Source of the DNA: Stentor roeselii
Taxonomy: Eukaryota > Ciliophora > Heterotrichea > Heterotrichida > Stentoridae
Direction of reading: 5' to 3'
Assembly: GCA_006503475.1 (NCBI GenBank)
Contig: RSEH01000190.1
Location: 1 to 64,000, forward strand
Length of the DNA: 64,000 nt
Position numbers and translations under genes: made by a program. The notes beneath the pieces are model-generated. The model did not search any database, was not told the origin of the DNA, and saw only the letters and a program-made list of their open reading frames with translations. Shown here piece after piece: positions 10,493-51,167 of this stretch (the stretch's first letter is position 1; each line of letters opens with the position of its first letter).

Positions 10493-10611
10493 TCTTCTAT
10501 TAATGTATCTGAGAAATCTTTCTATTATTATAACCTAAATACAGAAAAATCCTTTTGTATTTAAATCAATTCTAAAGCCCAGCTAATTTACCTTAATAAG
10601 TCATAACTACT

Positions 10612-17600: not shown

Positions 17601-18388
17601 CTTACAGAAATATTTTAGATATGGTGAGGATTATTTATTGTTATGGGTTTATTTCTTATTTACTTATGAATAGAATGACTGATATGAAAAGTTATGATAT
17701 TGTTTATCTTAAGATTTTTTTGATGATTCTTTGTTGGGTCAAGGGAATTTTGTATTTCAGGATGTTTGATATGACTAGATACTTTGTGACTATGATTGGA
17801 GATATTTTAGTTGATTCTCTTGGCTTCACGACGATCTTTTTCTATTCAATTGTTTGTTTTGCTAATCTTTTTCAACTCATTTTAAATGATCCTGATGCGA
17901 GTTATTTGTCTTTGTTTGAAAACACTTTTGAAACTATTTTTGGAGGAGGAAATCTGCTGGAAGTTAAAACTCAGTCGGATAAGGCAAAGTGGCTGATTTT
18001 CTTTTTTACAACTTTGGTTGTTACGGTTATTATGCTGAATTTATTGATTTCTATCATTGGGGATACTTATGATCGGGTTCAAATGCAGAGTGCTGAGACT
18101 TCGAATAAGATTAAAATCAGCATGATTCATGAAATTGAGAAAATGTTCTTCTGGAAGAGGAATAGTGGAAGTGAGAAGTACATGATAATCTGCGACAAAA
18201 TAGAAGCCGAATCCACCGACTGGGAAGGAAAAGTAAAAACAATAGTCCAAGAGATCAATCTAATCGAAAAGTCCCAAACCGATTACTTCCGAACCCTAAT
18301 CTCAAAAGTATCAGAGCACAAAAGTGAATCCACAAGTTCAATCAAATCACTTGAAGAGAAGCTAGACAAGCTTCTATCTCAAAAGTGA
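14663..18388 (+). CDS. WD40-propeller / TRP-like channel fusion
   Basis: 1241 residues. Residues 40-685 hold about 15 WD40 repeats with good GH...WD signatures (FEGHTDQIWSVAV...VCLWNL, LEGHQNIVTWLEM...VKVWNL), enough for two propellers. A helical linker (about 700-860; HVNVLHLYAYMDQQEEM, SPMLLAIQRNNFEIINAII) looks ankyrin-like. Six membrane segments follow at about 922-945, 950-975, 986-1003, 1012-1032, 1043-1074 and 1109-1136, with the TRP-like S2-S3 motif YFKSYRNILD and a pore-region FGGGNLLEV before the last. The tail (1160-1241) is coiled coil. I infer a cation channel gated or scaffolded by the cytosolic propellers. Stop is TGA, rare here. Only 17-18 bp separate it from neighbours on both sides. 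Confidence 0.9.
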   Translation: MASNYEPLNDVEERIDLDKKMTSTFSNCTVLQSNVTQIFPTTRDGKELVIVGFEDGKVCFVSNTVQYLKGHSLQVRRVLLTNDGNFAVTSSRDKTVKLWDLSSGNEKSSFDLGSDVVSIAIFHNLILSGCENGKVQVIDLNSEKIYQLEGHSEMIRWVAFAPDGSKLFSLSNDKTVKVYSSDFSTLASLVGHQGWVNRIDFSFDSRWAVTGSTDAKVILWDLETFEILSVFEGHTDQIWSVAVSPDGKWAASGSNDFSVCLWNLTEKKIEVVFKGHTHQVPHLKISADGKFVVSGSFDKTIKLWNIQEKRLEASFEGHTHFVRCVEFSQDGETIYSGGADKSLRKWGLTTKKTTNVFSGHSDWVRRLAIVPGKEKFVSAGKDKSVRLWSISKGLEFTFTGHKDEVWGLAVTPDGKYAVSGSHDKTVKMWDLESRTLAHSFEGHENWVTFVFITPDGRFAVTPSHDSTIGVWDLANRVLVCKMMGHTGAVVRLLLSDDGKTVFSSSRDKTVRVWDLMSGSLTCCFAEHSDLILSLAVTRDCSVLVTGCNDKTLRFFSVQEKNIKASLPGAHGGDINRVLITPDQLWAVSASDDKTIKLWNMMTFQLSWVLEGHQNIVTWLEMTSDGKTIVSASRDKTVKVWNLNNFKLEASYNNHSDVLYTLAVTANNHHVISGSFDKTVAVHKLFNRVEVQTSISGVFNSSLEAAVKVFNYKSQPFSEDMKDAIIFPLHVNVLHLYAYMDQQEEMKAALEVDTPYFTSSHFGSPMLLAIQRNNFEIINAIIEYFGRISTNKPVRFDVFGTLKEDLPELLKIRLRTIGDLLTDLPLIGNRTDLIKYIGFDAKLPQITFSDMHEFSGSLFPFNVQNKALIQVNYYAVPFRINLETGSTASLELLDQLEHSPNSNLFVSRLVQAIIDYKWARLQKEFILEFLNYATFLVLMCFYLSKLEVDVLGYFFILFFNSTCLFLEILQLVANVPRYFKSYRNILDMVRIIYCYGFISYLLMNRMTDMKSYDIVYLKIFLMILCWVKGILYFRMFDMTRYFVTMIGDILVDSLGFTTIFFYSIVCFANLFQLILNDPDASYLSLFENTFETIFGGGNLLEVKTQSDKAKWLIFFFTTLVVTVIMLNLLISIIGDTYDRVQMQSAETSNKIKISMIHEIEKMFFWKRNSGSEKYMIICDKIEAESTDWEGKVKTIVQEINLIEKSQTDYFRTLISKVSEHKSESTSSIKSLEEKLDKLLSQK

Positions 18389-23771: not shown

Positions 23772-24662
23772 ATGAATTCAAATCCGAAATGCCAAAGAAA
23801 TAACTGCTCTGAAAAAATAAAATATTTCTGCACCTGCGACCCATCAATAAACTATTGCAAGACCCATGGATTATCCCACAGATGCGATAGTCATTCATCT
23901 TTAATCTTAATTTCACCATTGAAAAGTTCAGAAACCGAGATGGAATCACAAAGATCAATAAACGAAAATCAAGAAGTTCAAAAAATCGAATCTCTTTACA
24001 AAGAAATTCTAAAAAACCTATCAACTTTCATAAAAATCTTTTTATATAAAATAAGAAATGCTTTACCTTCACCAGCAGAATTATTTAACATAGAAACAAA
24101 CAAATTAATTCTTGATTATCTTAACACCTTCAGTCAAAAGATACTTGAAAAGCAAGTCCCTGACATACCTCAATTCAAAGTTTTTCATCATTTCAAAACT
24201 ATGACAATTGATAACAAATTTTATGAAGGACAATTCGATGAAAGTAACAATGGATATGGATTAGTTCAAGATAAAGGAAAATTTTATATGGGAGGCATCG
24301 TCAATGGTCATTATGAAGGCAGAGGGATTATGTTTTATGAGAATTGTGAATATTATCATGGTGATTGGAATGCTGGAAAGAGGAAAGGAAATGGAATTTT
24401 TGTTTTTAAAGATAAATCTAGGTATACTGGAGAATTTGATGGAAAATTTCAGGGATATGGCGAAATGGTTTATCCTAATGGAGATGTTTATCAAGGAAGC
24501 TTCAGAGATGGAAAAAGGAATGGATTTGGGAAGTATTTGACTAAGAAATCGGAATTTGCTGATTTTAAAGAAGCGGATTGGATTGATGGAGAGATTAAAA
24601 CAATATATGCAGTTTCAGAAAATGGGATATATAGGAGGTTTAGAAGTCGAGATATCGATTAG
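23772..24662 (+). CDS. B-box-like zinc finger plus MORN repeats (copy 1)
   Basis: 296 residues. The N-terminus holds a B-box-like zinc-binding pattern: CQRNNCSEKIKYFCTC...YCKTHGLSHRC. A helical region (about 60-135) ends in the motif KILEKQVPDIPQFK shared by all three paralogues. From 150 to 275 there are about five MORN repeats (YEGRGIMFYENCEYYHGDW, YQGSFRDGKRNGFGKY). A membrane- or cytoskeleton-linked scaffold is likely. The MORN part starts with a first repeat of the form FYEGQFDESNNGYGLVQDKGKF, also conserved among copies. Stop TAG, with TAA next. Confidence 0.88.
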   Translation: MNSNPKCQRNNCSEKIKYFCTCDPSINYCKTHGLSHRCDSHSSLILISPLKSSETEMESQRSINENQEVQKIESLYKEILKNLSTFIKIFLYKIRNALPSPAELFNIETNKLILDYLNTFSQKILEKQVPDIPQFKVFHHFKTMTIDNKFYEGQFDESNNGYGLVQDKGKFYMGGIVNGHYEGRGIMFYENCEYYHGDWNAGKRKGNGIFVFKDKSRYTGEFDGKFQGYGEMVYPNGDVYQGSFRDGKRNGFGKYLTKKSEFADFKEADWIDGEIKTIYAVSENGIYRRFRSRDID

Positions 24663-25530
24663 TAATTTAGTGATGTTTGATTGGTTATCTACAGTCATTA
24701 GTAATAATCACCGATATTTGGCCATTAATTACTTTGAGATATCTCTTGTTTGATATTCTCATTGTTGCTTCACTTATTGTTCAAGAAAAGGATTGTAATT
24801 TCTAGAAATATTTTTCATAATACAGCGAAATGAAAGGAAGAATTTCATTCTACTAATGAGTAATTTTCATAAATCATTGATCTAAACTAATATCAATAAC
24901 TTATGATTAAATCAAAATTCAAATAGATACTTATTTCTTTACATCGTCATATCACGCTACATTTGCATTAGCGTTATTTTATCAAAGGTTAGTTTTATAT
25001 TTATACTTAGCATCATAACTTCTAAATTTATTCGATATAAACAAGTAAAATTCTTATAAAATACATCTAAATGTGGTTTCGAATCTAATAAATATAATTG
25101 GCTACTATGAAATTCAAGGTTTTATTCTTTATCATAAGTTGAAGTGAGCTTTTAAGAGTTTGCTAATGATTTTTTTTTATAATATTCAATTTATTGGATA
25201 TAAAGTATAATATGAGGAATGTATTATTTTGTAGTAATTAAAGTATTCTTTTCATTATTTTATTTTTTAAATCGATTAGAGTAACTAAAAGTAATGATTT
25301 ATTCATCCAAAGATTTGGCAATTATTTTAATATAAAGGAATTTTGAAAATCATCCTGCTTTAGGCTATAATGCTGAATTTAATCTGATTTTTTACAATGG
25401 ATACTTATAACTTTTAGCAAAAATTTACAGACAATCAAAATTTTCAAATAAAATTAAAACCTTGCTTCTATTAAAATGATTTAAGATAATTGTAAGTTAT
25501 AAATCACAGTCATTCTTCATATCTAATAAA
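24663..25530. other. Intergenic region, 868 bp
   Basis: Very AT-rich sequence between B-box/MORN copies 1 and 2. I see no ORF, RNA gene, repeat or gene relic. Confidence 0.5.
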
Positions 25531-26424
25531 ATGGATTTAATCTTTCTATGCATCCATCCTAACTGCGATAAAATCTCAAAATACATCTGCCAAGCTGATA
25601 AAGCCATTACCTACTGTTCCGAGCACAAACAATACCACAAAAATCACTGCAATTCCCAACTAATAAACCTAAAAAACTACAACACCTCAAAAATTCAATC
25701 ATCAATAACTGACCTCTCCCAAATCCTCCCGACTCCAATATCAATCGACCAAATAAATGAAATACACGACGAAATACTTCAAAATCTTTCAAATTTCACT
25801 AAAAACCTTTCATCCCATCTAATTTCTTCTCTCTCCTCATGCAAAACCAAACAAGACCAAAAATGGAAATTCCAAATATTAACTTATCTTCAACTATTCA
25901 CTAAAAAAATCCTAGAAGACTATATCCCAGACCTTCCAGAATTCAAGAAAATTGATTCATTTCAAGTTTTTAGTTTCAATTCCAAACTTTTTGAAGGGAC
26001 TTTCGATGAAAAAATCACGGGATATGGACTAGTCCAGGAAGAAGGAAATGTTTACATGGGAAGCATTGTTGAAGGGCGATATGAAGGCAGAGGGTTCATG
26101 TTTTATGAAAATGGGGACAAGTATCATGGGGACTGGGAATGCGGGTTGAAGAAGGGCTTTGGGAGTTGGACTAGTAAGGATAAATCTCAGTTTAAAGGTA
26201 ATTTTGATGAAGGAAAGCCTAATGGAATTGGAACTATGATTTATTCTAATGGGGATAAGTATGAAGGGAATTTCTCACAAGGGGTTCGAAATGGAAAAGG
26301 AACTTATTTCTATAAAAAATCGAATTATGAGGATTTTGATCAAGGGAATTGGGTTCATGGAAAGTTAAGTGGAAATGCTCTGTTGGTACGTGGAGGATCT
26401 AGACATGAGAAAAAATTAAATTAA
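25531..26424 (+). CDS. B-box-like zinc finger plus MORN repeats (copy 2)
   Basis: 297 residues, same layout as the copy at 23772: zinc-finger pattern CIHPNCDKISKYICQA...YCSEHKQYHKNHC, helical middle with KILEDYIPDLPEFKK, then MORN repeats (YEGRGFMFYENGDKYHGDW, YEGNFSQGVRNGKGTYFYKK). The MORN half is clearly closer to copy 1 than the finger half is, so the ends evolve at different rates or were homogenised. The third codon positions differ from copy 1, so duplication is not recent. Confidence 0.88.
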   Translation: MDLIFLCIHPNCDKISKYICQADKAITYCSEHKQYHKNHCNSQLINLKNYNTSKIQSSITDLSQILPTPISIDQINEIHDEILQNLSNFTKNLSSHLISSLSSCKTKQDQKWKFQILTYLQLFTKKILEDYIPDLPEFKKIDSFQVFSFNSKLFEGTFDEKITGYGLVQEEGNVYMGSIVEGRYEGRGFMFYENGDKYHGDWECGLKKGFGSWTSKDKSQFKGNFDEGKPNGIGTMIYSNGDKYEGNFSQGVRNGKGTYFYKKSNYEDFDQGNWVHGKLSGNALLVRGGSRHEKKLN

Positions 26425-26559
26425 ATCAATAGGTAGATGTAGGAAAATGAATAAGTAATAATATTATGGGTTGTTTTATTAGTAATCGGAGAATAATCTT
26501 TCTCTATTAATCCTATTCACAGAAAATTCAATCATTTTAAAACTTTCGTTATAATAAAA

Positions 26560-27456
26560 ATGGATGACATCGAATATTGCTCATTCCCTACATGTCATTC
26601 AACAGCTACTTACATCTGCTACTGCCAAGAAAATCAATTATTTTGCATTACTCATAAAGAAGCTCACAAATTATCTTGCTCATCAGCCTTAGCAACTCTT
26701 AGAACCCATCGAATGTCAAGATCATTATCTCTAGACACCCAATCATCTCAAGAAATCATTGTACCAAAAATAGAATCAGAAATCATCAAAAGCAAACTTA
26801 ACGAAATCATAGAAAACCTGAAAAAGTTCTCAAATTTAATAATAAACCGATTCAAAACCCTTCCAAACTTCAGATCAGAAGCCGAGTACAACCAAAAGAC
26901 CATGATTCTAGACTACCTTCTTGAAACCAGTAGAAAGATCCTTGAAAACCAAGTACCTGACATGCCAAAGTTTATCAACTCAGGGGTTAATTTCAGGTCT
27001 TTTACAAAAGAAAATAAGGTTTATGATGGCTTTTTTAATGAAGAAGATTCTGGATATGGTTTTATACAAGATGATAACAAGTTTTATATTGGATCAGTTG
27101 TTAATGGAATATATTCGGGACATGGAATGATGATTAATTCACCAAATGATTATTATATTGGGTGGTGGAAGGATGGGGTAAGGTCTGGGTATGGGGTTTT
27201 ACGAAAACCAGATGGTACTTGTGCAAGGGGAAACTTTGATAATGATAAGCTTAATGGATATGCCACTATTGTTTATAGTCAGGGCGATAAGTATCAAGGG
27301 GATTTTATTGAAAGTAAAAGATCTGGACTTGGGAAGTATAGCTATAAGAAAAGTGATTATAGCGATTATGATGAAGGGGAGTTTTATGATGGGAGGATTG
27401 TAGGACGTGCGAAATTAGTTAGAAATGGACGTGAACATTTTAAGGATATTAGATAG
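26560..27456 (+). CDS. B-box-like zinc finger plus MORN repeats (copy 3)
   Basis: 298 residues. Finger pattern CSFPTCHSTATYICYC...FCITHKEAHKLSC, the shared RKILENQVPDMPKF segment, and four to five MORN repeats (YSGHGMMINSPNDYYIGWW, YQGDFIESKRSGLGKYSYKK). The first MORN repeats are more degenerate than in copies 1 and 2. It is the last functional-looking gene before a gene-poor zone with two decayed genes. Confidence 0.88.
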   Translation: MDDIEYCSFPTCHSTATYICYCQENQLFCITHKEAHKLSCSSALATLRTHRMSRSLSLDTQSSQEIIVPKIESEIIKSKLNEIIENLKKFSNLIINRFKTLPNFRSEAEYNQKTMILDYLLETSRKILENQVPDMPKFINSGVNFRSFTKENKVYDGFFNEEDSGYGFIQDDNKFYIGSVVNGIYSGHGMMINSPNDYYIGWWKDGVRSGYGVLRKPDGTCARGNFDNDKLNGYATIVYSQGDKYQGDFIESKRSGLGKYSYKKSDYSDYDEGEFYDGRIVGRAKLVRNGREHFKDIR

Positions 27457-30251: not shown

Positions 30252-33200
30252 ATGGGTTGCATCAGTCCTAAAAACAAAAGCCACAGAGTTGACAGTACCA
30301 TTCAGGAGGTCAACAGGTTCTTTTACTTCTCAAGAGTCACTAAAACTCTTTACGAGGTGACTTCAGAACAAGTCCTCGAGTTTAAACTGAAGGGCGAGAT
30401 TGAAGCTTATCGCGATTCAGCCATCTCGACGCTTAACACTGACAAGATCGTTGTGATTGGAGGGTCAAACTTCTACAGTGAGCTTACTAATCAAGTTTAT
30501 TTAATAGATTGCTCTACTGTAACAATCCATGATTACGGAAAAACTCCTGTTAGTACTAAGGATGGGCATATATTGGTTAAAGGAAATACATTGTACTTTG
30601 TAGGAACTACTATTGAGGCTAATGAACACTCTGGATTATTTATAGGTGGGCCTGTTATGATTTATAGCTTAAGCAGTCACGAATGGACTGTTATTCCTCC
30701 TGAAAAGATCTCAAAAAATCATTTTTATTCATTGGCAAGGAACAAAAAAACCAATGATGAAATTAATTTAGATCAAATCGACTTCAATTTGAATTCAATC
30801 ATTTCTCCTGGAGTATTCATGTACGATGAAAGGTTGTACTATGTCGGCGGCAGAATATTTGACGGTAATGAATATGTTCCGTCGAAAAAAGTCTTCTCAT
30901 TAGGGATTAATGAATGGGATTTGCGACTTGAACCTTTCTCGCTGCCTGTTACTTTAATAAACCCTTTGTGTATTAATAAAGGACATGTTCCGTTCATAGT
31001 AGGAGGCTTTTTAGAAAATGGAAAACCAAATTTGGATATTTTCAACTTTAAAGCAAAATCTAATGATATTCAGCAATATGCAAAATCATTCGAAACCAGT
31101 CTAGAAGAAAACTATTCTCCACAAATCATTCACAAAGATATCATTTTCCATTCAATTCCAAAATTCTGGATAATTCCAGAAGAATCTAACGACCTGATAA
31201 GTTACACAGTATCCAAATCTCCAGGAGACATAAAAGAATCAGTCCGAAGAACCTTTAACCCTTCCTCATCCTCAATAGAAGCTCAATACATTCAAGTAAA
31301 CAACCGAACTTTAACCGTAATGGAATTCGTTGCATCCAACGGTGACTACCTTTCAGACAACAACGGTAAGCAGGTCCTTCTCTTCGAAAGCGGAATGATA
31401 AACTTAGCTTCAACAGCATTTCACGTAGATGAAAATTTAACCATAATTTGTAAACCTTTACTCCGTAAAGACATCTCATCAAATCACAAAATAATTTTCA
31501 AGCTAAACCGAAAAACTGCAGTTTTCACCTTAGAAAGCCATTTTCTACACCCTGGCGAAATGACTCTGAACTTCGAGCATCTCCTCGATCGAAAAGACCC
31601 TCCTTCCCCTATTCACTGGGCAAGTCCAGTAACGATAAACAAAGTCCACTACACAAACTGGAGTCGAACAATAACAGCTAATAAAATTTGGACCGCAGCT
31701 CCGAAAAACTTCGAAGAAGTTGAATTGATTTGTAACTGGGGAATGGAAAATGAATATTTAATAAGGCCAAGAGGTGTTATTCATGGATGGTCACCTTTAA
31801 CAATTTTAAATCAAGAGAAGGCAAAGGTCCTTCTAGTTGACCTTACCAAGTTCCCAGGGCCGATGAAGTTTAACTCTTCTGGTCCTTATGGTCCTTGTGT
31901 TACTGTTTCAGCTGGAACGACTTTAGGAGAATTATTAAAATTTTTAGAACAACAACAAGGAACTGGAGAGGCTCCTGGGTGGAGCTTTCCTCATACACCT
32001 GCACCTGCTCATCTTACTATTGGAGGAGTTTTAGCGATTAATGCACATGGCTCTGCGATTCCAGTGGAAACTGAGAATTTTCAGGTATCTTATGGGTCGT
32101 TAAGCAATCATATTTTAGAACTATGGGCAGTTGTTACTGACCCTAAATCAAGTAATCCTAAACGGTATATTGTTAAGAAATTTGATAGAAAAGATAAAGA
32201 TATCAAAGCGTTTTTGGCTCATTTGGGAAGAACGATTGTTGTCCAAGTTACCTTGAAAGTGATTCCTAATTACAATTTAAGATGTCAGAGTCTTGTTAAT
32301 TTAAGTTTTGAGACTTTATTTGCAGAACCTGTTAATGGTAAAAATCCGGAAAATTCGATAGGGTACTTAGCAGAAAGAGCTGGAAGAGTGGAAGTCATCG
32401 GCTTTCCTTTCACTGAGTATCCTTGGACTAAGGTCTGGACACATGAAGCAGAAATTCCGATAGGCAGTGTAAAAGTAGAAAATATGAACAACTATCCTTT
32501 TTCTGATTCTTACCCAGACTACATCACAGATTTATTGAAAAAAGTTACATCGATTCCTGAAGTGACTCCACCTTTATGCCAAATAATGTCGAAATACACA
32601 AATTTCGAACTAGTTCAACAAAACTTAACTGATCTTTGGGGTCCTTCTAAAAATACCTTGATTTATATCAGGGACCAGACGTTAAGGGTCACTGCCAACG
32701 GGTATGCTATTCACATGAACCGAAAATACATTCAACAGGCTTGTTATTTATTTTATACGAAATTCGATCAGTTGATTAAAAAATACGATGCAAAGGGACA
32801 GTGGCCTATTAATTCGCCTTTAGAAATTAGAATCACTGGACTTGATAAAAATGAATATATTTTTGATAATTCTGATGATGAATTTAATCGACCTGTCATT
32901 TCTGCTCTTGCTTATAGTCAGTTGGATAAGGAAAGAAACTGGGATGTCGCGGTTTGGCTTGATATTTTAACTATTCCAGGAACTAAATATTCTGATAAAT
33001 TTTATGCGGAGTTTGAAAATTGGCTTGATGATAATTTCAATGATGAAAATGCAAAAATTTTTGTGGAGTGGTCGAAAGGATGGGCTTATACTGAAAAAAT
33101 GGGAGCGTGGAGTGATGGAAATTCTATTCAAAGTATTAGGAATGCATTTACTGAAGGGAGGGCTAGAGATGATAATTGGAAGTGGCAGGGAAAGACTTTG

Positions 33201-33260
33201 GAAAAGTATGATGCTGGGAATATTTTTTACTCTGGATTGAATAGGGTGTTATTTAGTTAG
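30252..33260 (+). CDS. Kelch-like propeller fused to class-II cholesterol oxidase-like enzyme
   Basis: 1002 residues. MGC at the start suggests myristoylation and palmitoylation. Residues 20-330 look like a kelch-type propeller (YYVGGRIFDGNEYVPSKKV, PFIVGGFLENGKPNLDIFNF). From about 455 the protein matches bacterial FAD-linked class-II cholesterol oxidases: NWSRTITANKIWTAAP, RPRGVIHGWSPLTI (His near 510 is the expected covalent FAD ligand), TIGGVLAINAHGSAIP, YGSLSNHILELWAVVTDP, AHLGRTIVVQVTL, and in the substrate-binding cap RVTANGYAIHMNRK, PLEIRITGLD, WDVAVWLDILTIPGT and EWSKGWAYTE. The predicted reaction is sterol 3-hydroxyl oxidation with H2O2 production. The oxidase part is probably of bacterial origin. 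All main motifs are present, so it may be active. Confidence 0.9.
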   Translation: MGCISPKNKSHRVDSTIQEVNRFFYFSRVTKTLYEVTSEQVLEFKLKGEIEAYRDSAISTLNTDKIVVIGGSNFYSELTNQVYLIDCSTVTIHDYGKTPVSTKDGHILVKGNTLYFVGTTIEANEHSGLFIGGPVMIYSLSSHEWTVIPPEKISKNHFYSLARNKKTNDEINLDQIDFNLNSIISPGVFMYDERLYYVGGRIFDGNEYVPSKKVFSLGINEWDLRLEPFSLPVTLINPLCINKGHVPFIVGGFLENGKPNLDIFNFKAKSNDIQQYAKSFETSLEENYSPQIIHKDIIFHSIPKFWIIPEESNDLISYTVSKSPGDIKESVRRTFNPSSSSIEAQYIQVNNRTLTVMEFVASNGDYLSDNNGKQVLLFESGMINLASTAFHVDENLTIICKPLLRKDISSNHKIIFKLNRKTAVFTLESHFLHPGEMTLNFEHLLDRKDPPSPIHWASPVTINKVHYTNWSRTITANKIWTAAPKNFEEVELICNWGMENEYLIRPRGVIHGWSPLTILNQEKAKVLLVDLTKFPGPMKFNSSGPYGPCVTVSAGTTLGELLKFLEQQQGTGEAPGWSFPHTPAPAHLTIGGVLAINAHGSAIPVETENFQVSYGSLSNHILELWAVVTDPKSSNPKRYIVKKFDRKDKDIKAFLAHLGRTIVVQVTLKVIPNYNLRCQSLVNLSFETLFAEPVNGKNPENSIGYLAERAGRVEVIGFPFTEYPWTKVWTHEAEIPIGSVKVENMNNYPFSDSYPDYITDLLKKVTSIPEVTPPLCQIMSKYTNFELVQQNLTDLWGPSKNTLIYIRDQTLRVTANGYAIHMNRKYIQQACYLFYTKFDQLIKKYDAKGQWPINSPLEIRITGLDKNEYIFDNSDDEFNRPVISALAYSQLDKERNWDVAVWLDILTIPGTKYSDKFYAEFENWLDDNFNDENAKIFVEWSKGWAYTEKMGAWSDGNSIQSIRNAFTEGRARDDNWKWQGKTLEKYDAGNIFYSGLNRVLFS

Positions 33261-33989
33261 ATGATTATTAGATTTTTTATGATTTTTTGATTTTTATTCG
33301 AGGATTCATTGATTGTTGATTTAAGTAATGGAAAGTTTAGCATAAGATATATAACGAAAAAATCTAGTTATTGATTAGTTTCCATTCAACTATATTTCTT
33401 ATTGGTCCTTCTAACACTTATAACTGCTCTAAATTCAATAATTATTAAAAATTTGATTATACAGGCTTCACATATTCTCATTAAACTTGATATATTCGAT
33501 AAATTCTTTAACTTAAACAGTATTCATTATTTTCAGAATAAATATTGTTTCCTGCACTTATTGAAAACATCAACTTTTGTTAAAAAACTCTGCAAAAATT
33601 ATTCTCAAAGAAATGTTTGTCTAGAAATAAAAGCAAACAAAATTAACTCGACTCTTTACCCCTGATATCCGTATCTAATAAATAAATTTAAATACAAGAT
33701 AAATTAAAATATGAGTTTTCAGCTCTCTAACTTCTTTCTTAATCTCAAGTAATCAAATAACTGAGCCATTCATCTAAAATTTCCCTTTGAGTTAAAATGA
33801 GCCTATTAATTAATGGCTGATATTCTTCTATAAATGGAATGAATGGTTGACATCCTTTTATAAATGGATTCTTTGTCCAGAGAAAAATGCCATAGATTTA
33901 AAAGTCCTTAGGAGAATAGTTATTTTCTTTCTTAAAACACTAGAAAACTTAACAGAAGGTAATATTAGATAAAATGATAGAGAAAATTA
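33261..33989. other. Intergenic region, about 730 bp
   Basis: AT-rich. An ATG-less open stretch at 33402-33665 is hydrophobic and basic with no family features. A pair of diverged direct repeats of about 29 bp (ATAAATGGA core) lies at 33819-33878. No gene is supported. Confidence 0.5.
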
Positions 33990-35060
33990 AAGGAAAAGAT
34001 GAAAATCTTTACGGATTCCGCCTTACCGTGGTGGAAACAGACAAGATAATAATGGTAATATGTTCGAACCTGCAAATGATGTGACAAGCAAAATATTTTA
34101 AAGGACTATTGATATCAGAAGTTCAGGAATTCGGAATGTTCTTAGGAAGCCATATTTTTAAGAAAGATCACTTTTTACTTCCTAGAGACTACTGTTGAAG
34201 TAAATAAGCACTTTGGGATTTTTGCAAAAGGATCTGCTATACTTTTCAACTTAAATAGCAATCAATGGATGTAGTCCCTCCTGAAATGTTTCCAATTCAA
34301 GTATTTGTCGTTTACCAGAAATTTCATCACTTATAATAGTTTCGACTTGGATTAAATCAACTTTAACATTAAGTCCCTCTAATATCCTATAACTTTTTTG
34401 TTCAATGATCAGATTATTCTAATGGTAGCAGGATTTAATGTCTATAAATATGTTCCATATATGAAAAGATTCTTAGGAATTCTTAACTGGATTGCGATTA
34501 AAGCCTTTCTAGCCACCAAAGTTTTTATCAATCAATTATTTATAAATAAAAGTCTTACTGATATCATAGCTGGCGGCAATTTGTAAGATGAAGAACCAAA
34601 TTATGATATTTTTTTATTCATATAACTTAAGATAAAAATGATTTAAATGGTTTAATGATAAATTTGAGAGTCTTTAAAGGTGAGCTTTATTTATATAATT
34701 TGATAATTTTACAATTGAATTTAAAAGAGTGAGATTTTAACTGATTAATTATTTTATACTCAATTTGATTTTATCGAATCGGGATGCTATAAGAAAATAA
34801 TATTCTCTGGTGTTCTGTTAATTGGGTAGTTATTTCAGCATTTGCTTACAGTTAGATCAGGACAAAGAATTTGATGCTGCTTTGTGAGTTTTTTGACACT
34901 TCTTCTCTTAACCATTTTTATTTAAAACTCGAGCAAAAGTTTAATGTTTAGTGCGAAGGTTTAAATTGATTATCGAAGGACTGGACTTATATTCATGAAA
35001 AAAGACTTAGGAGTAATAGTAAAGTAATCCAGGGCATTAAAGATGAATTACTGATAATAC
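33990..35060 (+). pseudogene. Decayed copy of the kelch/cholesterol-oxidase gene
   Basis: Pieces align in order with the gene at 30252: 34010-34190 with its first blades (TDKII-VIC versus TDKIVVIGG); 34189-34300 with 30606-30700 (ending in the equivalent of VIPPE); 34410-34600 with 30820-31045 (VAGFNVYKYVPYMKRFLGI versus FDGNEYVPSKKVFSLGI); 34838-35060 with 32904-33180 (SAFAYSQLDQDKEFDAAL versus SALAYSQLDKERNWDVAV). The FAD domain (about 1.9 kb in the parent) is missing, and stops and frameshifts are frequent. A tandem duplicate that decayed. Confidence 0.85.
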
Positions 35061-35305
35061 TGTTAAAAATGATGACATTATGCATCAAAAAGACCTTATC
35101 CAACAATAATACTATTAATCTCTTAATTCATATCTAACCAAGACATTATTTATTCAATAATAATATTCATGAATAACTATCTCTGAATATCCCAACATTT
35201 AAATTCCCCAAAATTCCCTCCCTCCTAAAACATCCAATCCAAAAAAATTTCTCCAAACACATCCCTATCAACTCCAATCTCCATAAACCAAATTAAAAAA
35301 TCCTA

Positions 35306-38300
35306 TTAACGAATATCCTGTTTTTCCGTTCCTTCTCGAGATCCAAGTTCATCCATGGACTCACTTTCAACTTTCCTCTTTTTCCTCTTTTCAAAGCACT
35401 TATAAAAGCAGACCCTAATCTGCAAGATAACTCCAAGATTAGGAAAAATCCACTTCATCAAAAGATATTCAAAACCCGGCATAAAAAAGAAGTCTCCGAT
35501 ATACCCAGTGACAGTTGTAACGATCCACTTATAACTAACAGAAATATCCAAGTTCATAGCGAACATAGCGATGCTCCAAGAGAACCAGATCATAAGCGGC
35601 CAGCAAAAAGCAAGACAGCCGATTCTTCTCCACCTGTTCTGCTTGATAATCCTGACATTTTCATCTTTAGACCATTTGATATTAACAGGGTTGTTTTTCG
35701 TCAAGTAAGCAACGACCACTTCAATGCAGAACATGATGATAGTCGAGTAAACCATAACTAAAAAGTCTCTAAAAGTATACCCGCTGATTGCTTCTCTTAT
35801 CGTTGTCGCTTCTTCACCGCCACCCCCATCATAAAACAATCCAATAAAATACATCTTTCCAATCAAAACCGTGAAAATCATGGTGCAAGTCGAAAGTCTA
35901 AAAGCATTCGGGTCAAACAAGAAGAAAATCCTTAAAAACTTGTGATTATGAATCAAGTTTTTTATACGAACTCTCGCTTTAATGATGATATTTTCTTCTT
36001 TCTTCGGGTCTAGCATCTCACCTTCAGCGATGTCTGAGTCGACCATGATAGCTTCGTCATTTTGAGAGATATGAAGACTTTGCTCTTGGGCTTCAACGAC
36101 TTTTAAAACGTTTTGATTGTCGATTTGTTTGATGATTTCTTTCATATCTTCAGCGTCTTTTGATCCTACTAAAATTGCGATGATTACGTAAGCTACTAAA
36201 AGAGTTCCACAAACATAAAAGCCGAGAGCACTAGTCGCGTTTAAGTCTTTTAATGATTTAAAGTCAGTGGTTTGGGCGAAGTTGTTTGAAGGAAAAAATC
36301 CGCCTCCTTCAGTTCCTTCCCCTGCTGAGAAGAAAGAAAGATGACTACATTCACAGATGATTGAAAATGTCTTCACCTCAACAACAGTGCACCCGAATGA
36401 GTCCCATTGATAACTTTCATTTAAAAAAACACAAGCAGGTTTTTTCACAGTCTCAACACTAACAACCGGCACTTCTAACAGAAATTTACTAGTCTTTAAA
36501 CTGACATCTTTTAAAAGTCCTTCTTGAAAAACAGAAATCGATAACACGTCAGGAACTGATTCACTTTCACCTGTTGAATCAAGTTTAACAGTACTGAAGT
36601 GCATTCCTATTTTCAACCCCCCTGCCATCTGTTGAAAGACCTCACTGGGCACGTTGACTGAAGCCAGGCCTTCTGTTTTCAACTGAGCACCTGAGGTATA
36701 ATCATTAAAAACCAGTGACTGCATCGTCATTTGATTTGTTTCAAGTTGATTTTTCTGCCCTGGAATCATTTTTTTCATCATTCCTGAATTCACGTTGTTG
36801 AGGACTTGATGCAAGGAGTCCATTGAAGCTGTCTGGTTGTAAAGTGCTGAAAGTTTCATTTTTACTGAATTATCAACTGAGTCTAAAAGGTTTTCTGCCT
36901 GGTCTTTAGTGAGTCCTAAGTGATCAGTTTGGTTTAACAGCTGGTGAATCAATTGAGTTGTCTTGTTCAGGTTTTCTTCTGAACGAAGGTTAGGGTTTTG
37001 GGTCAGGTCTTGAAGTAAAGAACTCGTCAAGTCGATTAGCTCTGGACTTGCCATGCTTAGTTCTATTAAAGAAGAGACTTTTTCTTGGATTAAAAAAAGA
37101 GTCTCTTGAAGTTTTGTGTCGAGCTCTGGGAAAGTCTCAGTATCGCTCCGGCGGTTTAGACTTGCTGATAGAATATTGCTTAAAACGTTTGGAAGTAAGT
37201 CGAAACGCACTTGATTCAAGGAATTTGAAGTTTTTTTCAAGAATTCATCGATTTTTGATTGGTCTTGTTTTTTTATTGTGACTGTTAAAGTCTCTTCGGA
37301 ATAATCACCTAGACTATCGAAGACTTTAGTAAAAACTGTAAGTTTTTCACCTTTGTAAGGAAGGATTAGTTTAGCTGAGTTGCTGATACTTGTTGGAATT
37401 AAGATAAAGGATATGTTTTCTTGAATATACCCGAAGTTGTAGAGAAGTGGATAGTTTTTTTCAGTGTCTTGCCAGTCGTTTGTTAAGAAATAAAATTCAG
37501 TTTCTAGCTCAGTTCCTTCATTGGGAGTGACTGAAAATATTCCGAATTTTGGTGGAGAGTTCATGGTGAAGTCGTAGTAGTATTCACTTGAAGAGCCACT
37601 CTCAGAAGTCATTTCAAGGACTAGCTTGTAACTCTCGCCTTGAACCAAGCCACTTGGATCTATCCCTATATAGACCTGGTCTGTCGGAGTTATGAAAATC
37701 GAGTCTTTTCCTTCCACTCTCCAGGAAAAACTGAAAACATCAGTTTCTTCATAAATCGCTTTAAAAGTAAGTTTTTCAGATATCTTGAATACCCTTTTTT
37801 CAGTACTTGTAAGTGCCTCGACTATTTGAACTTTTGCAACTTTCCAAGAAACGATTTTTAAGGCAAGGGAAAGTGAAGATGAAATGAATTCAGAGGTTTC
37901 TTGGTCGAGTTGGTAGTTTAAAGTTACTGTTAAAACTAGCTTGTCAAGTGCCTGACTCTGCAGAAAAGTCCTGGGAATAGTCACTATTGACTTATTGTTC
38001 GTGAATTGGAACTTGCAAGGCCTTCCCAACAAGAAACATTCCCAAGTGAACTGAAAATTCGTATTTTCAGGAAGCGGGTTTAATATCAAAGAGCTGATAG
38101 TCAAGTCTTCTAGACTTGAAACAAAGCCCCCGATACGATCTGTTGAAATTATCAGGTCTGAAGGAAGAATCTTGATGTTCAGCTGTGAGATTGACTCGGC
38201 TTTAGACAATGTCTCAGTCACTGTTAGCTCAAATTTTAATATTCCAGGTAAGAAGAAGTTTTCAGGAATTTTCACTGAAGTGGGAACTGTTTGTAAAGCC

Positions 38301-41300
38301 CAGAACTTGTCGAAGTCAGCAGAGATTTCTTTTTGGTTTTTTAGTTTCCAGGAGTAATTAAATAAAGGGTTTTTTGAGCAGGTGTCAATTGATTTTATAG
38401 AAAATTGACAGGGTGATGACTGTTTACAAGAGTTTTCATTTACTTGTTCGAAAAGGACAGTGATTTTATTTTCTGTTGTCAATAAAACCTTTGATGTTGT
38501 TGAGTCTTGGTAATCAAATCGATTTTTTACAGTTAAAGTTATCAGAATTGTACCTTCTTCAAGTAAATCTCTTGGAATAGGGTAGATCGAAATCCCTTTT
38601 TTTGAAAGTTCTGGAATTTCTTTATCATTTAACACAAATTCCCATTGATACTGAAGATCATCAAGTAACTTTCCAGTGGATAAACTTCCATCAACAGTTA
38701 AATTCTGACAATTAAGCAAAATCGTATCTGGAACACTGATGATAGCTTTGGGTGTTGGAAACTCAGCTGAAAACTTCAAAGAAACACTGACAAATGTTGA
38801 GTTAAACCCACATTCCTGCCGAGTTCCAATAAGACTTTTCTCTAAAAACGAAATCGTTTCTTCCTTTAAAGTATTCCCTTTTCCTAAAACAATAGTAAGA
38901 ACTTTAAGATTTTCAGAAAAAATACATGAAAACCCTGCACCTAGCTTGAAAATCACACTTTCATTAAACAAAGCCTTACAAGGTACTTTTATAACAGGTA
39001 CTTCAAAGTTAATGATAACCTGCATAAAGCTATTATCAAAGTACCCAGAGACTTCTCCTTGTTGTAGCCATCTAGTGCAATTATCACATTTATCTTGATA
39101 AATTTTCTGTATTCCTGGACATCTACAAGAATTACTTCTAATATCATAATCTGCGCCTTCAGCGCAGGCACATGGAAAAGTTTTACTCACAGACCCATCC
39201 ACACATTGAGTGCAGTTTTCATTTAAAAACTGAAAAGTCTTACACAGAGGGTCAGGGTGAATATTACAATTTACTTCACTTGAACACCCTGTCAAGCACT
39301 CAACTCGACAACGCCCGCAGCGGAGCTGCGGGCCAGGAAATTCATTAAAAAGACAAGAAGATAAAAATTCATTCATCTCTAAACATTCAGAACCCGAGCA
39401 AGAATCAAGTGGGTCAAAGTTGTTAACCAAAAAATTAAAAAAACTCACTCTGTATATATACCCTGTAAATGAACTCACTATTCGCCCTCCTAAAAAGAAA
39501 TAACTTGTTAAGGGCTGGTTAAAGATTGAATTTATTTCAGCTTTTATTTCTATTTCTTCGTTGTTTAGATAGGTTCTTAATGTTAACTTGTTTGAAGTGA
39601 AGTCAAGAGACCAACGGAAATGATACCAAAGGCCTGGAGTTATTGGCGAGGAATGGTTCAGATTTGATGAAGAGAATGTGTCGGTTATCATGTAGCTTAG
39701 GAAGAGTTGAGGCGATTTTGAAGTTATTTGGTGGGAAAGAGAGATGAAGGGAAATTTTTCGTCTGATAGAGATAATAATTGACCTGGGTTTAAAGGGTTT
39801 AGGAAAAGTTCAAATGTGTGGGTGTTGCTTACTCGAAGGGTAGATGGCTTTTGAGGGGTCCCTAGGGTGGCTGATGAACGGTTGAAGTAAAGACCTCGTT
39901 TGTAGAGGAGGAATGGGTCGAGGTTATCGTATTTTGGCCAGAAACTGTCGTCGAGGCCCATGTACATCTGGTATTTTCCACTGGTGATCACATTACTAAC
40001 CCTGTTAAAAGTAAAAGAAAAAACCCTAACATCATTACGATTGCATTTCCAATCATCACTTAAATCCCCATCCCCACAATAACTCAAGCAAGTGCCATCA
40101 TAATTTTTGAAAAATGGTCTAATACAATTCTGATCACTTTCCATCAAATAACTGCACCCTTCATATCTCGGTAAACAACGAGCACATTTTCCGCTTTCCT
40201 CAACCCAAATCGATTTTTCCATACATCTCAAGCAAGTAGATTCACTATTACTACAAACATCACAATATTCATCATTGCAAGGTCTACAGTCATTCGGCCT
40301 TCTACAATTACAAAGATTAGGACAAGCAGAGCAACTCTTTCCATTAAAATAATAAAAAGGTCTACAATTCCAAAGAAAAGAGCCAATCATTAAAACATCA
40401 GAAAGATCATTGAAATTAACAGCTTCAGACCAATAGTTAAATGAGTAAATCCAGCCGATTATCCCTGAACCGATTGAAAAGCTTGAAGGCCAGTCAAGGT
40501 AATAATCATTTACTTTCTCTTCAGAGAAAAAAGTGTCTTGTCTGATAGAGATCGTCAGAGGTTGGCCTTGTTCTGATTTAACTGAAACAAATAAAAAACT
40601 CCAGGTGTCTATATTAAAGTTGTTATTCAAACTAAAGGAAAATACCTGGTTTTGAAGAGTTATTGAAATTGATAACTTTTTTCTTGAAGTTTCTATAAAA
40701 AATGATGGCTTTTCTAGTACTCGACCCAGACTTCGAGAATTGATCCACATTGATATTGAGAAAATATTTGAAAACATTGAAAATTCTGGACCTGTCAGTT
40801 GAGAGCCGTTAAAATAAACCCCTCTTAAATAACCGATCAAAGGAGGCTCTTTTGAAGCATAAATAAAAGAAAGGTCAGGGTTTTCAGTCTGAAAAATTCC
40901 GTCAAGTTGATTAAAAATAATCCTTGCGCTAGTCATTTCAGAAGCGATACAAGATGTATCAACCTGCTTGTAAAATAAAGGACATTTAACAGTGCAGAAG
41001 TGGTTTAAAGTGATATAGCAGCTAGTACAAGAACTATAACTCGCGTCGTTGCAAGTTTTACACGCTGGGTGACAAGGTAAGCACTTGCTTCCGAAATTTA
41101 CTTTTCCTTCTGGACAAACACAGTTAGATTCAGCATAAATAGCTTCAGGAGAACATTTTTTGCAAGAGGTTGAATCGAATGAATCACAAGAGTCACAAAG
41201 GATATTCGAGCAAAGTGAACAAGTGTCACTGTATCTGCAAGTAAGACATGTCAACATGCATTTCTTGCAAGTATTTCCTTCGTAGTACTCTTCAGGAAAG

Positions 41301-44300
41301 CAAGGCCATAAAGTTGGAATAATTGAAAGAAAGTCATCATTGTTTTCAAGGGAAGTTATTGAGTATGTAAAAGAATACACCCATGATCTTAGTGTAGAAG
41401 TTGCAGTGCTTATCATTAAATTTCCATCAATATCTAAAAAACTTCCAGGAAATGAAGTATCTTGTCTTTCTTCATTTAAAAATAGAGATATTTTCACGTT
41501 ATCACCATCAATGTCAACTGTTAAAGTAAGCAAGTTCCATGTATTTAAACAGGCTTTATTTTGGTTAACCTGTTTTTCAACCCCGCCTTCTAGAACTATT
41601 TTAATAATAACATTAATATCAGTGATCTCTATTCCAAGTTTCGGCTTGTAAAGAAATACTCCTGTAGTGTAAGGGTGCACCCAGGACTTGATACTGAAAA
41701 TATTAGACAGAAGAAGTGGAATTATTGATTCAAGATACAAAGTTTTTAAATAAAGACCTCTTTTGTATCCGAAAATTTGACTTGGAGTGGCTTGGGCAAC
41801 AGGACTTGTTTGGATTATGTTGAAGAAGTCGGAAAGAATATCGGTGTTTAACTTGGTTGTTGAAGTTAAAAATCTGTTGAAGTCAATATTGAACTTTTGA
41901 TGACCTATTGAGAGACAATCAGGATTTTGTTCGGTGTAAAGGTAAGGACAAACTGAAGTGCATTTTTGATTTAGGTTGAATTTGCAGGTAGAACATCCTA
42001 AATGGGTTATAGTTGTACAAGATGTGCATGAATTGTGACATGATTCACATTTGTCTTTATTACGAGCATATCCTTGCAAGCATGAGCAGTTATGGGTGTT
42101 AATATCCCCTTTTTCAATACATCTACTGCAATAAGAAGAGAAATTATCACAAGCAGCACAATTAGGAGATGAACAAAGTGTGCAAGTATCTACATATCTG
42201 CAGGTACTACACTGAGAAAGACAAGGTTTGCATTCTCCAGAAACATCCATCATTGATAACGAGCAAGTCCATATCTCAATATCAGCTCTGATATTTAAAT
42301 ATTGATTAGTTTCAAGTAAATATGCTAGATATTGAATTCTATAAATCCATCCTTGATAGAAATTATTATTCAAACGAAGGATAACAATAGGTTGTTTCGT
42401 GTCAAGGAAATGAGGAATATTTCGAGTTCCTAACAACTCATTTTCCAGCCAAACATTATAAACGCCATTTGATGCTGAGGCTTCATATGTCATTGTAATT
42501 AACACCCAGCTATTAAAATCTATATTTTTCTCTTCACTGTTCAAATTAACACCATTCAAAGTAATATATTTCTCATAAAATCCTAATGAAAATCTATTCA
42601 AAACATTCAATACTGAACCTTTTTCAGGTTTCACTAAAAACTGAATCGTAAATTTATTAGAAAACATGAAACTCGTTGCAGAATTTAAAGTAGATAAACT
42701 ATTCATCAGTATTCCTCGAGCATATGCGATTTTAGGTATAATAAGTGCGTTATTCTCTTTATAATTAAAGGAAAGGTTAGGATCAGTTGTTGTAAAAGGA
42801 TTATTCAGCCTGTTGAATTCAAGTAAAAAGCTGTTGCCAAGGCGAGGATTGCAAGAAAACTTCCCAAAAGAATCAAGAATTTTTTCGTAATAATTCGGAC
42901 AATCATGTGTGCATAGTTCATTTAAAGTGCCTGCACAAGTCGAGCATCCCAGATAAGTTCCATCAGTGCAGGTTGCACATTGACTGGAGCATGAAGAGCA
43001 GAATCCGTTGTTTAGGTAAAACCTGTCCCTGCATCTAGTGCATGTGTTTCCATTTGTTCCAGTACAGTCAGCACACATGATGACCTGGCATCCCCAGCAC
43101 TGATTATCTCTTGAATACATTCCAACATCACAAAAACATTTCCCATCATTATCCATTGAAGCACCACTTGCACAACTTATGCATGTATTCGGTGACTGTG
43201 AAGAACATTCAACGCACAGCGGTTGACAAGGGTAGCAATTTTCATTTAACTGATAATAACTTTGTCTGCAAACACAGATGTCGCCTTCCCGTCTTGCATT
43301 CTCAGCGCAAGAGTTGCAGGATAATTCTGTGTCTTTTTCGCAGTTTCGACATAATGGATGATAGCATATTGAACAGTTGGTACTGAATCGACATGTTGTA
43401 CATGATGGGCTGCATTGAAAGCACTCATCGATTAACTGGTATTTACCTATTCCACAAAACCAGGTATCTATATATGAATACTCAAAATCAAACACCATTG
43501 AATTTTGATTTAATCCTATTTTATAAACCCAAAAACTATTTATAAAATCCCCAAATATTGTAGTACTCTGATTAGAACTTTTAAAAAAATTTTGAGAACT
43601 AGGTGTTGATTCAAATTGATTGGGAGAATCTTGCTCTTTAAATTCAATAGAAAACAAAGAATTTTGAATCACTGCAGAAATTTTAAGATTAATCCAATAT
43701 TCAGGATAAATTCTTGTAAAACTTTTCTTTATCAGTCCATTGAAAGTGAGAATTGAAATCGAATATTGACTAATATCTACACTTATTGAAAGTTCTGTTC
43801 CAAATGAAGAAACTCGATTAATAAATGTAACTTTTTCTGGTAACTTAACCCAAGCAGCCAATTGAAAAATAGGACTAATAATAAAAGAGCTGGTATCAAT
43901 TCTTTTAGTATACCAACCTCTTTTATACTGAAAGGTACTACCTGGAGCTGCTAACATAGAAATAGTTGAATTTGTAGAATTCATATTCAAGGTGTTAAAA
44001 TCCCATTCAACATATTGAGGACTTCCTTCTTGTAGAAAGCAAACCCCGTTGAGATCATTAAAAAGAAGAGGGCAACCTCGAATACAAATGCCATTAAATA
44101 AGTTATATCCAGGAAAACATGAAGTACACTTATCCAAAGCGTTTAAACTGCATGAAACACAATTCAAAGGACAAGTACTTAAACAGCCTCTATCATCTAA
44201 ACATCCAATGCAATTGCAAGTAACACATCCACCTGCTGAAACATAACTCATCAAATTACAAACACTTAATACTCCTGAATCAATTCCATTTAAACTGAAT

Positions 44301-49858: not shown

Positions 49859-50266
49859 CTAATTATTTCCTGCCCTCAAATCATTTTCCCTAACCTGTTC
49901 ATAAAGCCTATCAACCTGTTTCCTTACATGAAAAATTTCTACCTCTTCATCTTTCAACATACCAACAGGTTTTTCCACTTTTTTTCTAATTTCCCTTCTT
50001 TCCTTTTCAACCTCTTCACTTCTATTCGGCCTGACATTGAACTTCCTCTGAACAGGTTCATATTGAATATCATCTAAAATGACTTTCCGTGCAGTGGGTA
50101 GTTTGACATCGAGGTCTATTTGTTTAAACAAAGGAACAACTATTTTTTCAGCTGAAATTTCATCAGCGATCTCTTGACCAGTTTTTTCTATTTTTTCAGT
50201 CCTTTTCGGGGCGAGTTTGGAAAGATTTTGTTTGAAAGCCTGGGTAAAAATAATGGTTTTGATCAT
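49859..50266 (-). CDS. Small charged protein, unknown
   Basis: 135 residues from the ATG at 50266 (the frame stays open a little further but without an ATG). The N-terminus MIKTIIFTQAFKQNLSKLAPKR is hydrophobic then basic, compatible with a mitochondrial presequence. The rest is highly charged: KQIDLDVKLPTARKVILDD, then EVEKERREIRKKVEKP and a helical C-terminus. A mitochondrial ribosomal or matrix protein would fit, but I recognise no family. Start codon only 10 bp from the divergent neighbour. Confidence 0.6.
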   Translation of the reverse strand: MIKTIIFTQAFKQNLSKLAPKRTEKIEKTGQEIADEISAEKIVVPLFKQIDLDVKLPTARKVILDDIQYEPVQRKFNVRPNRSEEVEKERREIRKKVEKPVGMLKDEEVEIFHVRKQVDRLYEQVRENDLRAGNN

Positions 50267-50276
50267 TATATTGAAA

Positions 50277-51167
50277 ATGTTCTCAATTAGATCTTCAAAT
50301 TTTTTTGCATCACCCAAGTCGCCGGTTCCGGACTTTTCGGAGTTTACACTTGAGTTGTCTCAGATCTCTGAAGTTGAACAGACAGTTTTTTCGCCTTTGA
50401 ACTCGTCGATTAATGAGTCGAAGATCGAGTACTTTAAAAATTCGCCTTCAGTCAACACGTTTAAAGTCAGGGAAAGTTTCATCGCAGGACTTTTAAGCCA
50501 AGAACTCACTTTGCAAAGAGCTCTCAGTGAAAGTTCACTAAAAGTCAAACAGTTAGAAATCGATTTAAATTTTTACGTTGAACAGTTTCGAATTGTTAAT
50601 GATGAAAACTTAGCCCTGCAGTCCTTATTGATTGAAAAAGATAAAATTATTGATGAACTTGTTGCTGATTCCACGAAAATAAATCAGAAACTTGAAGAAA
50701 GAAAGTATTTATCGAAAGGAAGTTCTGATGATGACTGGTCAAATGAATATTCTCGAAAAAGTCCAAAAAATCTTCAAGAAAGTTCTGAAAAGTTACAAAA
50801 AACTCAAGAAACTTGTGTAAATACAACTTGCAGTCATCATTCAACTGACAGTATCAACAATAAAGAAATTTTTAGACTTTTGAAAGAAAATGAAAACTTG
50901 AAAATAGAAATTTGTGAATTAGAGAATCAAATGAAAAAGCAGGACTTTTATATTATTAAAGAATTAAAAAGTGAGTTGAAAGTTAATGACTCTGAAGGGT
51001 TGATTAGGAGAGTGCTTTATCTTCAAGAACATTTTCATCAGACGAAAGAAATTTTACCTGTTTATAGTCAGATCTCTTCGATTGTTTCGAAAGCGGTCGG
51101 GCGGATGGTTACAGAGCATTCGGGGATTATTCAATTGGTCAAATCTAAGTTCCTTCCACAAGTTTAG
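50277..51167 (+). CDS. Coiled-coil protein, unknown
   Basis: 296 residues from the ATG at 50277; an in-frame ATG at 50253 is an alternative that would overlap the divergent gene's start. Ser/Pro-rich N-terminus (ASPKSPVPDF), coiled coil at about 65-130 and 195-245 (LLKENENLKIEICELENQ), and a helical C-terminus (SIVSKAVGRMVTEHSG). Likely basal-body or cytoskeletal by composition; no named family. Confidence 0.72.
   Translation: MFSIRSSNFFASPKSPVPDFSEFTLELSQISEVEQTVFSPLNSSINESKIEYFKNSPSVNTFKVRESFIAGLLSQELTLQRALSESSLKVKQLEIDLNFYVEQFRIVNDENLALQSLLIEKDKIIDELVADSTKINQKLEERKYLSKGSSDDDWSNEYSRKSPKNLQESSEKLQKTQETCVNTTCSHHSTDSINNKEIFRLLKENENLKIEICELENQMKKQDFYIIKELKSELKVNDSEGLIRRVLYLQEHFHQTKEILPVYSQISSIVSKAVGRMVTEHSGIIQLVKSKFLPQV

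Follow-up and report, generated by a model that had tools for sequence, protein, structure and literature searches.

Gene architecture and copies

The subject of this analysis is a gene at positions 30252-33260 (forward strand) of a 64,000-nucleotide stretch of contig RSEH01000190.1, which we refer to as the window; the contig itself is called C106 below. The gene forms a single open frame of 1002 codons, in which a kelch part is joined to a class II (VAO-type) cholesterol-oxidase part, and Pfam places its domains from the N-terminus to the C-terminus in the order PF24681 kelch, FAD_binding_4 (a flavin adenine dinucleotide, FAD, domain) and Chol_subst-bind (PF09129). An in-frame TAA lies seven codons 5' of the ATG, with no in-frame ATG in between, and the frame closes with TAG. 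It contains no TGA codon, so the reading is the same whether or not the organism takes TGA as Trp. The features are as follows, with the evidence for each in brackets:

30252-33260, forward: fusion gene with kelch, beta-sandwich and class II cholesterol-oxidase-like parts (open frame, Pfam, PDB matches, paralogues)
30252-30287, forward: N-terminus MGCISPKNKSHR, with Gly2 and Cys3 as candidate lipidation residues (sequence, Met-Gly starts of the kelch family)
30252-31211, forward: kelch module, residues 1-320, of a native ciliate family (Pfam, family profile, 25 other genome places)
31212-31265, forward: variable junction, residues 321-338 (low paralogue identity)
31266-31601, forward: unnamed beta-sandwich domain, residues 339-450 (homologous to an extension found at the N-terminus in a few bacterial relatives of the class II cholesterol oxidases)
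31602-33257, forward: VAO-type catalytic domain (FAD-binding part and PF09129), residues 451-1002 (Pfam, PDB, model fold)
31782-31784, forward: codon of His511, equivalent to His121 of Brevibacterium sterolicum (alignment)
31950-31997, forward: longer loop ending F-P-H-x-P-A-P, residues 567-582, also present in the bacterial sister clade (motif count)
32823-32831, forward: codons 858-860, with Glu858 and Arg860 equivalent to B. sterolicum Glu475 and Arg477 (alignment)

PF09129 was found at three places in the 44.4 Mb genome, on two contigs, and all three are kelch-oxidase fusions. Copy 2, on contig C502, is intact, encodes 999 residues and is 63% identical to the window protein, while copy 3 (C106:67908-70900) is full length with a single one-base frame break near codon 140. 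Since the genome has two more full-length copies, each about 63% identical to the window protein, the fusion is not a product of chance; the joined frame is real, and its sequence indicates that it is most likely one gene for one protein. The original prediction had set the junction near residue 450 (about 31600), which needs to be moved, as the boundary between kelch and bacterial parts lies instead near residue 339 (about 31266).

Constraint was estimated for each part, pairwise among the three copies, as the ratio of Nei-Gojobori proportions of nonsynonymous and synonymous differences (pN/pS). Between the window copy and copy 2 the ratios were 0.36 for the kelch part, 0.58 for the middle domain and 0.25 for the oxidase; between the window copy and copy 3 they were 0.32 (178 codons), 0.50 and 0.30; and between copies 2 and 3 they were 0.19 (180 codons), 0.50 and 0.24, with 0.37 over the first 138 codons. 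On these values, which are rough because synonymous change between the window copy and the others is near saturation, all three parts appear constrained, the middle domain least. The 18 junction codons (321-338), which share 33% and 11% identity with the two paralogues and have pN/pS of 0.65, and 1.0 against copy 3, look nearly free of constraint.

A relic copy with stops sits just 3' of the fusion gene:

33920-34619, forward: relic copy, decayed kelch part with several stops (matches at 33920-34072, weak, and 34152-34619)
34687-35073, forward: relic copy, decayed 3' part of the oxidase (local DNA score of 87.5, against a maximum of 50 over 200 shuffles)

Codon use of the kelch and oxidase parts correlated with that of the other window genes at 0.88 and 0.90 (0.48 for the short middle part), a likeness that would be expected if the acquisition were old.

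The catalytic domain

PF09129 matched residues 676-1001 with an E value of 1.2e-91 (307.6 bits, cut-off 25) and FAD_binding_4 (PF01565) matched residues 482-602 at 1.4e-7 (31.7 bits, cut-off 26.4). The only PDB sequence matches at E of 0.1 or below were 3js8 (2.5e-122, residues 453-996), 1i19 and 2i0k, each named or titled as a cholesterol oxidase. From residue 481 onwards, 45 of 53 ten-residue blocks of the full-protein model reached a predicted local distance difference test score (pLDDT) of at least 85, and a fold search with the model ranked 3js8 first, with a template-modelling (TM) score of 0.95 by target and a root-mean-square deviation of 2.2 Å, 1i19 giving a TM of 0.94 by target.

For the B. 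sterolicum enzyme, the available text of PMC7588053 names His121 (covalent FAD), Glu475 and Arg477. By a hand count on the PDB alignment (constant offset of 52) these correspond to His511, Glu858 and Arg860 of the window protein. Their equivalents are kept in all 84 rows of an alignment of 80 bacterial loci, one plasmid sequence and the three ciliate copies, and 2i0k, titled a His121Ala mutant, has Ala at the aligned His position. The claim that the C-terminal part is a class II cholesterol oxidase with its flavinylation His is thus borne out by Pfam, the PDB matches and the kept His511. The domain is probably a class II cholesterol oxidase, with its chemistry predicted from the family and a sterol as the presumed substrate.

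Sugar-lactone oxidases (ALO/GULO), which the original prediction had named as the competing assignment, were looked for in the searched libraries and were not the best matches; TIGR01678 scored 30.3 bits against a cut-off of 396.8, and lactone dehydrogenases rank after the cholesterol oxidases by fold (TM about 0.7). As to a class I reading (GMC type), no GMC oxidoreductase family was among the seven Pfam matches of the window protein at E of 1 or below.

The ciliate protein shares with the enzymes of Chromobacterium sp. DS-1 (3js8) and B. sterolicum (1i19) the whole catalytic fold, the FAD His and the catalytic Glu and Arg, but differs from them in its kelch and beta-sandwich N-terminal parts, its longer F-P-H-x-P-A-P loop, its clade and its start, which is not of the twin-arginine translocation (Tat) type. 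It is the setting that is new, a known oxidase fold being placed in a new multidomain protein.

The kelch module and the N-terminus

PF24681 matched residues 34-154 with an E value of 9.2e-10 and 38.6 bits, below its 50-bit cut-off. A search of the genome with the whole protein returned 30 places: the three fusions and the relic account for five, and in the remaining 25 it is the kelch part that is matched. A family profile built from 18 hand-picked members, all with a Met-Gly start, recovered PDB kelch domains (2woz, 4.1e-15). The original suggestion that the oxidase is joined to a ciliate kelch module agrees with these matches, which place the kelch part in a family native to the ciliate. 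Members elsewhere in the genome (e.g., on C135, C66 and C49, and a giant Ser/Lys-repeat protein of the window) resemble the fusion in N-terminus and kelch module, with 22-32% identity in blast matches, but in place of the oxidase they end in Ser/Lys repeats, coiled coil or other sequence, PF09129 having been found in the three fusions only. Further kelch-family frames with Ser/Lys-repeat tails were noted on C135, C297 and C316.

Of 21 other kelch-family frames, taken from 20 fetched stretches, 18 begin with Met-Gly at their first ATG, compared with three of 34 unrelated frames of at least 200 residues, counted after removal of low-complexity frames. The consensus for N-myristoylation is Met-Gly at the start and small residues around position 6. 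The three fusion copies begin MGCISP (window), MGSDSS and MGSTSS; a dual-acylation N-terminus (MGC), as originally proposed, therefore fits the window copy, with its Cys3, but not the other two, which start MGS, and Gly2 is what all three have in common.

The beta-sandwich domain

A domain of about 110 residues precedes the oxidase in open frames of four of the 10 closest bacteria among the relatives analysed, namely Westiellopsis (L024), Okeania (L027), Variovorax (L030) and Micropruina (L032), and is present in pieces in a fifth (L029). With residues 319-455 of the window protein as query, tblastn reached Okeania at 3.8e-8 and Westiellopsis at 3.0e-5. A profile built only from six bacterial stretches was compared with 1613 frames taken from the window and from the ciliate loci fetched; at E of 10 or below it matched three of them, and these were the three fusions (copy 3, 3.8e-14; copy 2, 2.8e-11; window, 6.6e-8), with no other kelch protein matched among those frames. 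A single-protein search of the whole genome likewise found the domain in the three fusions only. By this homology, the transferred bacterial unit appears to include residues 339-450 as well.

These bacterial two-domain relatives carry the same beta-sandwich directly before the oxidase, share 43-48% oxidase identity with the ciliate protein and have the same loop, but they lack a kelch module and their frames can begin directly at the beta-sandwich. Each of the two phyla surveyed yielded the domain in its seed genome only, 1 of 292 genomes for the phylum of Westiellopsis and 1 of 398 for that of Variovorax. In L029 the domain also occurs at 1314-1628 as a short frame alone, beside a second copy near the oxidase.

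The domain gave no Pfam or NCBIfam match above cut-off (the window stretch had no Pfam match of any kind) and matched no PDB sequence (the best E was 0.17). The bacterial version was modelled as a confident beta-sandwich (pLDDT 91.6). In a Foldseek search with it, the top two rows, the sole two at E below 0.001, and most of the first 26 were cholesterol-dependent cytolysins, with weak superpositions (TM 0.44-0.52 by query); one row, 5cr8, is the separate membrane-binding domain of pneumolysin, which suggests that this domain is the part of the cytolysins being matched. Superpositions as good or better were obtained with 2mca (0.60) and transthyretin-like proteins (0.56-0.58). The comparison gives a fold class only, and a membrane role for the domain is a guess built on predicted structure.

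Bacterial relatives

The bacterial relatives analysed were the best 80 of 431 from a scan of genome contigs, and the collections compared comprised prokaryotes, phages, viral contigs and plasmids. A quick tree was built from the 84 rows with Shimodaira-Hasegawa-like approximate likelihood ratio test (SH-aLRT) support, and a careful tree from 38 of these rows, with bootstrap and SH-aLRT support. In both, the trio of ciliate copies forms a group with an identical set of 10 bacteria, drawn from seven phyla (support of 100 by SH-aLRT in the quick tree, 100/100 in the careful tree): two cyanobacteria, a Saprospiraceae member, a gemmatimonad, an acidobacterium, Sphingomonas, Variovorax, a deltaproteobacterium, Micropruina and a Solirubrobacterales bin. 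Outside this group, on the opposite side of the tree, are Chromobacterium, Burkholderia, Streptomyces and Pseudomonas. Within this prokaryotic comparison set the trio groups among bacterial sequences, in line with the nesting that the original prediction proposed to look for; the predicted bacterial origin agrees with the trees, but the expected kinship with classical actinobacterial and proteobacterial enzymes does not hold, the nearest available bacteria forming a separate, patchy clade set apart from the characterised enzymes.

The motif F-[PA]-H-x-P-A-P occurs in 13 of the 84 rows, which make up the whole clade, and in none of the 71 others. A Tat-like motif 5' of the oxidase was seen in none of the 10 clade loci (the upstream frame of L029 being broken) versus 49 of the 71 others; the pattern applied was strict and overlooks some, e.g., the Burkholderia starts. 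Neighbouring frames of the clade loci (20 frames from seven of the 10 loci, several of them probably not genes) had nothing in common, and a single suggestive operon was seen, in Westiellopsis, where genes for a PhyH-like dioxygenase and a squalene-hopene-cyclase-like protein precede the oxidase (L024, 116-2127). This neighbourhood suggests a cyclic isoprenoid pathway.

Class II cholesterol oxidase genes were also seen in 35 IMG/VR contigs (L130-L164), all 38% identical to the query. A viral carrier was considered and rejected, as in 29 of the 35 loci the listed range stops about 0.7 kb or less from the edge of its contig, and these are probably the host flank of prophages.

Origin and function

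Taken together, we think it reasonably probable that a heterotrich gained a bacterial beta-sandwich and sterol oxidase behind a native kelch protein, and that the product carries out membrane-tethered sterol oxidation. The heterotrich lineage would have acquired, ultimately from a bacterium, a gene for a small beta-sandwich and a VAO-type sterol-oxidase domain; these domains would have been placed behind a Met-Gly member of the kelch family, where other members carry other tails, and the gene would then have duplicated to at least three copies and the relic. Myristoylation of Gly2, with palmitoylation of Cys3 also in the window copy, would hold the kelch propeller on the cytosolic face of a membrane, where it would bind a partner. 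With its FAD attached to His511, the catalytic domain would take a 3-beta-hydroxysteroid from the membrane and oxidise it to the 3-ketone, the electrons passing to O2 to give H2O2. Myristoylation places a protein on the cytosolic side, and this speaks for action at the inner membrane face and against a secreted weapon.

No squalene or oxidosqualene cyclase was found in the genome with PF13243 or PF13249, at family level and exon by exon. If this absence is real, a dietary sterol is the likely substrate. According to the available text of PMC8079401, Tetrahymena either makes tetrahymanol or takes up and modifies dietary sterols. More tentatively, and with less confidence than we place in the explanation as a whole, a sterol-auxotrophic ciliate might have joined a bacterial membrane-engaging beta-sandwich and sterol oxidase to a lipidated kelch scaffold, confining oxidation to a membrane or cortical site for sterol handling or peroxide signalling. 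The beta-sandwich, judging from its modelled fold, may help the enzyme to meet sterol membranes.

Several points weigh against this explanation. One of the three copies has a broken frame, and the near-saturation of synonymous change weakens the pN/pS values. The middle domain was seen in five of the 10 clade genomes, only half, and the Saprospiraceae genome, in the group nearest the ciliate trio, is without it. In the careful tree the trio joins the cyanobacteria and Saprospiraceae at 91/92, and the nodes around it (91/92 and 92/91) have moderate support; the quick tree does not settle where the trio belongs among the 13 rows, and the ciliate stem is long in both trees (0.85 and 0.99, the latter in the careful tree). 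The collections compared were of prokaryotes, phages, viral contigs and plasmids, which makes the direction, route and date of transfer tentative, and to our knowledge no member of the 10-bacterium clade has been assayed. The kelch part is not resolved in the predicted structure, with pLDDT below 50 in 27 of 33 ten-residue blocks over residues 1-330, from an alignment that had no other kelch sequence. Finally, the assembly searched for cyclases is perhaps incomplete, and the positive controls that gave a signal were prokaryotes.

Among the alternatives, the one that survives best, and which we regard as possible rather than probable, is that the enzyme's own substrate is some other polycyclic or hydrophobic alcohol and not a sterol, as the substrate of the sister clade may differ from that of the characterised enzymes. 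The trio falls outside the clade holding Chromobacterium haemolyticum, which we take to be near kin of the 3js8 source; the loop differs in all 13 clade members, the Tat-like motif was not seen in the bacterial ones, and the Westiellopsis oxidase follows the dioxygenase and cyclase-like genes. However, all the catalytic residues are kept, the PF09129 match is strong, and a lone operon from a single species is weak evidence, which itself still indicates cyclic isoprenoids. A sterol remains the substrate that we favour.

Somewhat less likely is an indirect origin, in which the oxidase reached this lineage through another eukaryote or by descent within eukaryotes, and not directly from a bacterium. 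The long ciliate stem of 0.99 would fit missing intermediates, as would the composition of the collections, but the nearest available relatives are bacterial and five of them have the companion beta-sandwich. It is improbable that the oxidase domain is catalytically dead and serves as a sterol-binding sensor or scaffold: it is joined to a scaffold-looking family and exists in several copies, but His511, Glu858 and Arg860 are kept in all three, and between the window copy and copy 2 the oxidase is the most constrained part (0.25). Finally, despite the poorly conserved junction, there is very little chance that two neighbouring genes or an assembly join were taken for one frame, because the same in-frame join recurs on a second contig, and in the third copy bar a frame break about 180 codons before it, with constraint on either side.

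An ultimately bacterial acquisition would make this an apparently clear case of a bacterial piece forming the tail of a native eukaryotic gene family, in which the companion beta-sandwich marks out the bacterial kin, retention is shown by three copies under constraint, and a decayed copy lies next to the gene. If active, the enzyme would give a route to dietary sterols for a ciliate that may lack both sterol and tetrahymanol synthesis, and would make a clade of bacterial sterol-oxidase relatives, apparently unassayed, worth testing. The Carb::Aldo fusion of Colepidae ciliates, as described in the available text of PMC13344042, is similar in that a transferred bacterial domain is fused to a native ciliate domain, but it combines an aldo-keto reductase with a carbonic anhydrase in another ciliate group, and its function was tested by RNA interference and enzyme assay. 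In the literature searched, at the level of titles and the starts of abstracts and with most subscription papers outside it, there was no report of a ciliate, protist or kelch-fused cholesterol oxidase.

Host genome and neighbouring genes

Contig C106 terminates in a (TGTTAGGG)n telomere repeat. A 32-base stretch of this repeat had 461 genome matches, overlaps counted, and the places listed cluster in blocks that sit either at a contig's low end or at a single high position on it, C106 being the one checked as a contig end. The Blepharisma telomere repeat CCCTAACA, given in the available text of PMC9942806, is the same repeat on the other strand, and from this repeat the host was taken to be a heterotrich ciliate. 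Contamination was considered and rejected, given the telomere-ended contig, the neighbouring kelch gene of the same family and the two other fusions, one of which shares this contig while the other is on C502. From sequence, the nuclear code may be the Blepharisma one. Two frames of the window, at 1914-3077 and 50079-51167 (both forward), lengthen when TGA is read as Trp, the first by 61 protein-like residues.

Other window frames were described by eye. Three adjoining frames of about 335 residues at 9482-12989 (reverse) have CxxC-type N-termini and look like paralogues with a zinc-binding or RING-like head, and three adjoining frames of about 297 residues at 23772-27456 (forward) have a Cys/His-rich head and MORN-like repeats. 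A 1241-residue frame at 14663-18388 (forward) has WD40-like repeats and an ion-channel-like C-terminal part, and a single frame of 3781 residues at 35306-46651 (reverse), with cysteine-rich repeats and a membrane C-terminus, resembles a polycystin or adhesion receptor. The giant Ser/Lys-repeat protein at 55100-64000 (reverse) exceeds 2960 residues, with a repeat of about 37 residues by eye, and is headed by a module of the fusion's kelch family:

63731-64000, reverse: kelch module heading the giant Ser/Lys-repeat protein (genome search; the match runs past the window to C106:64645)

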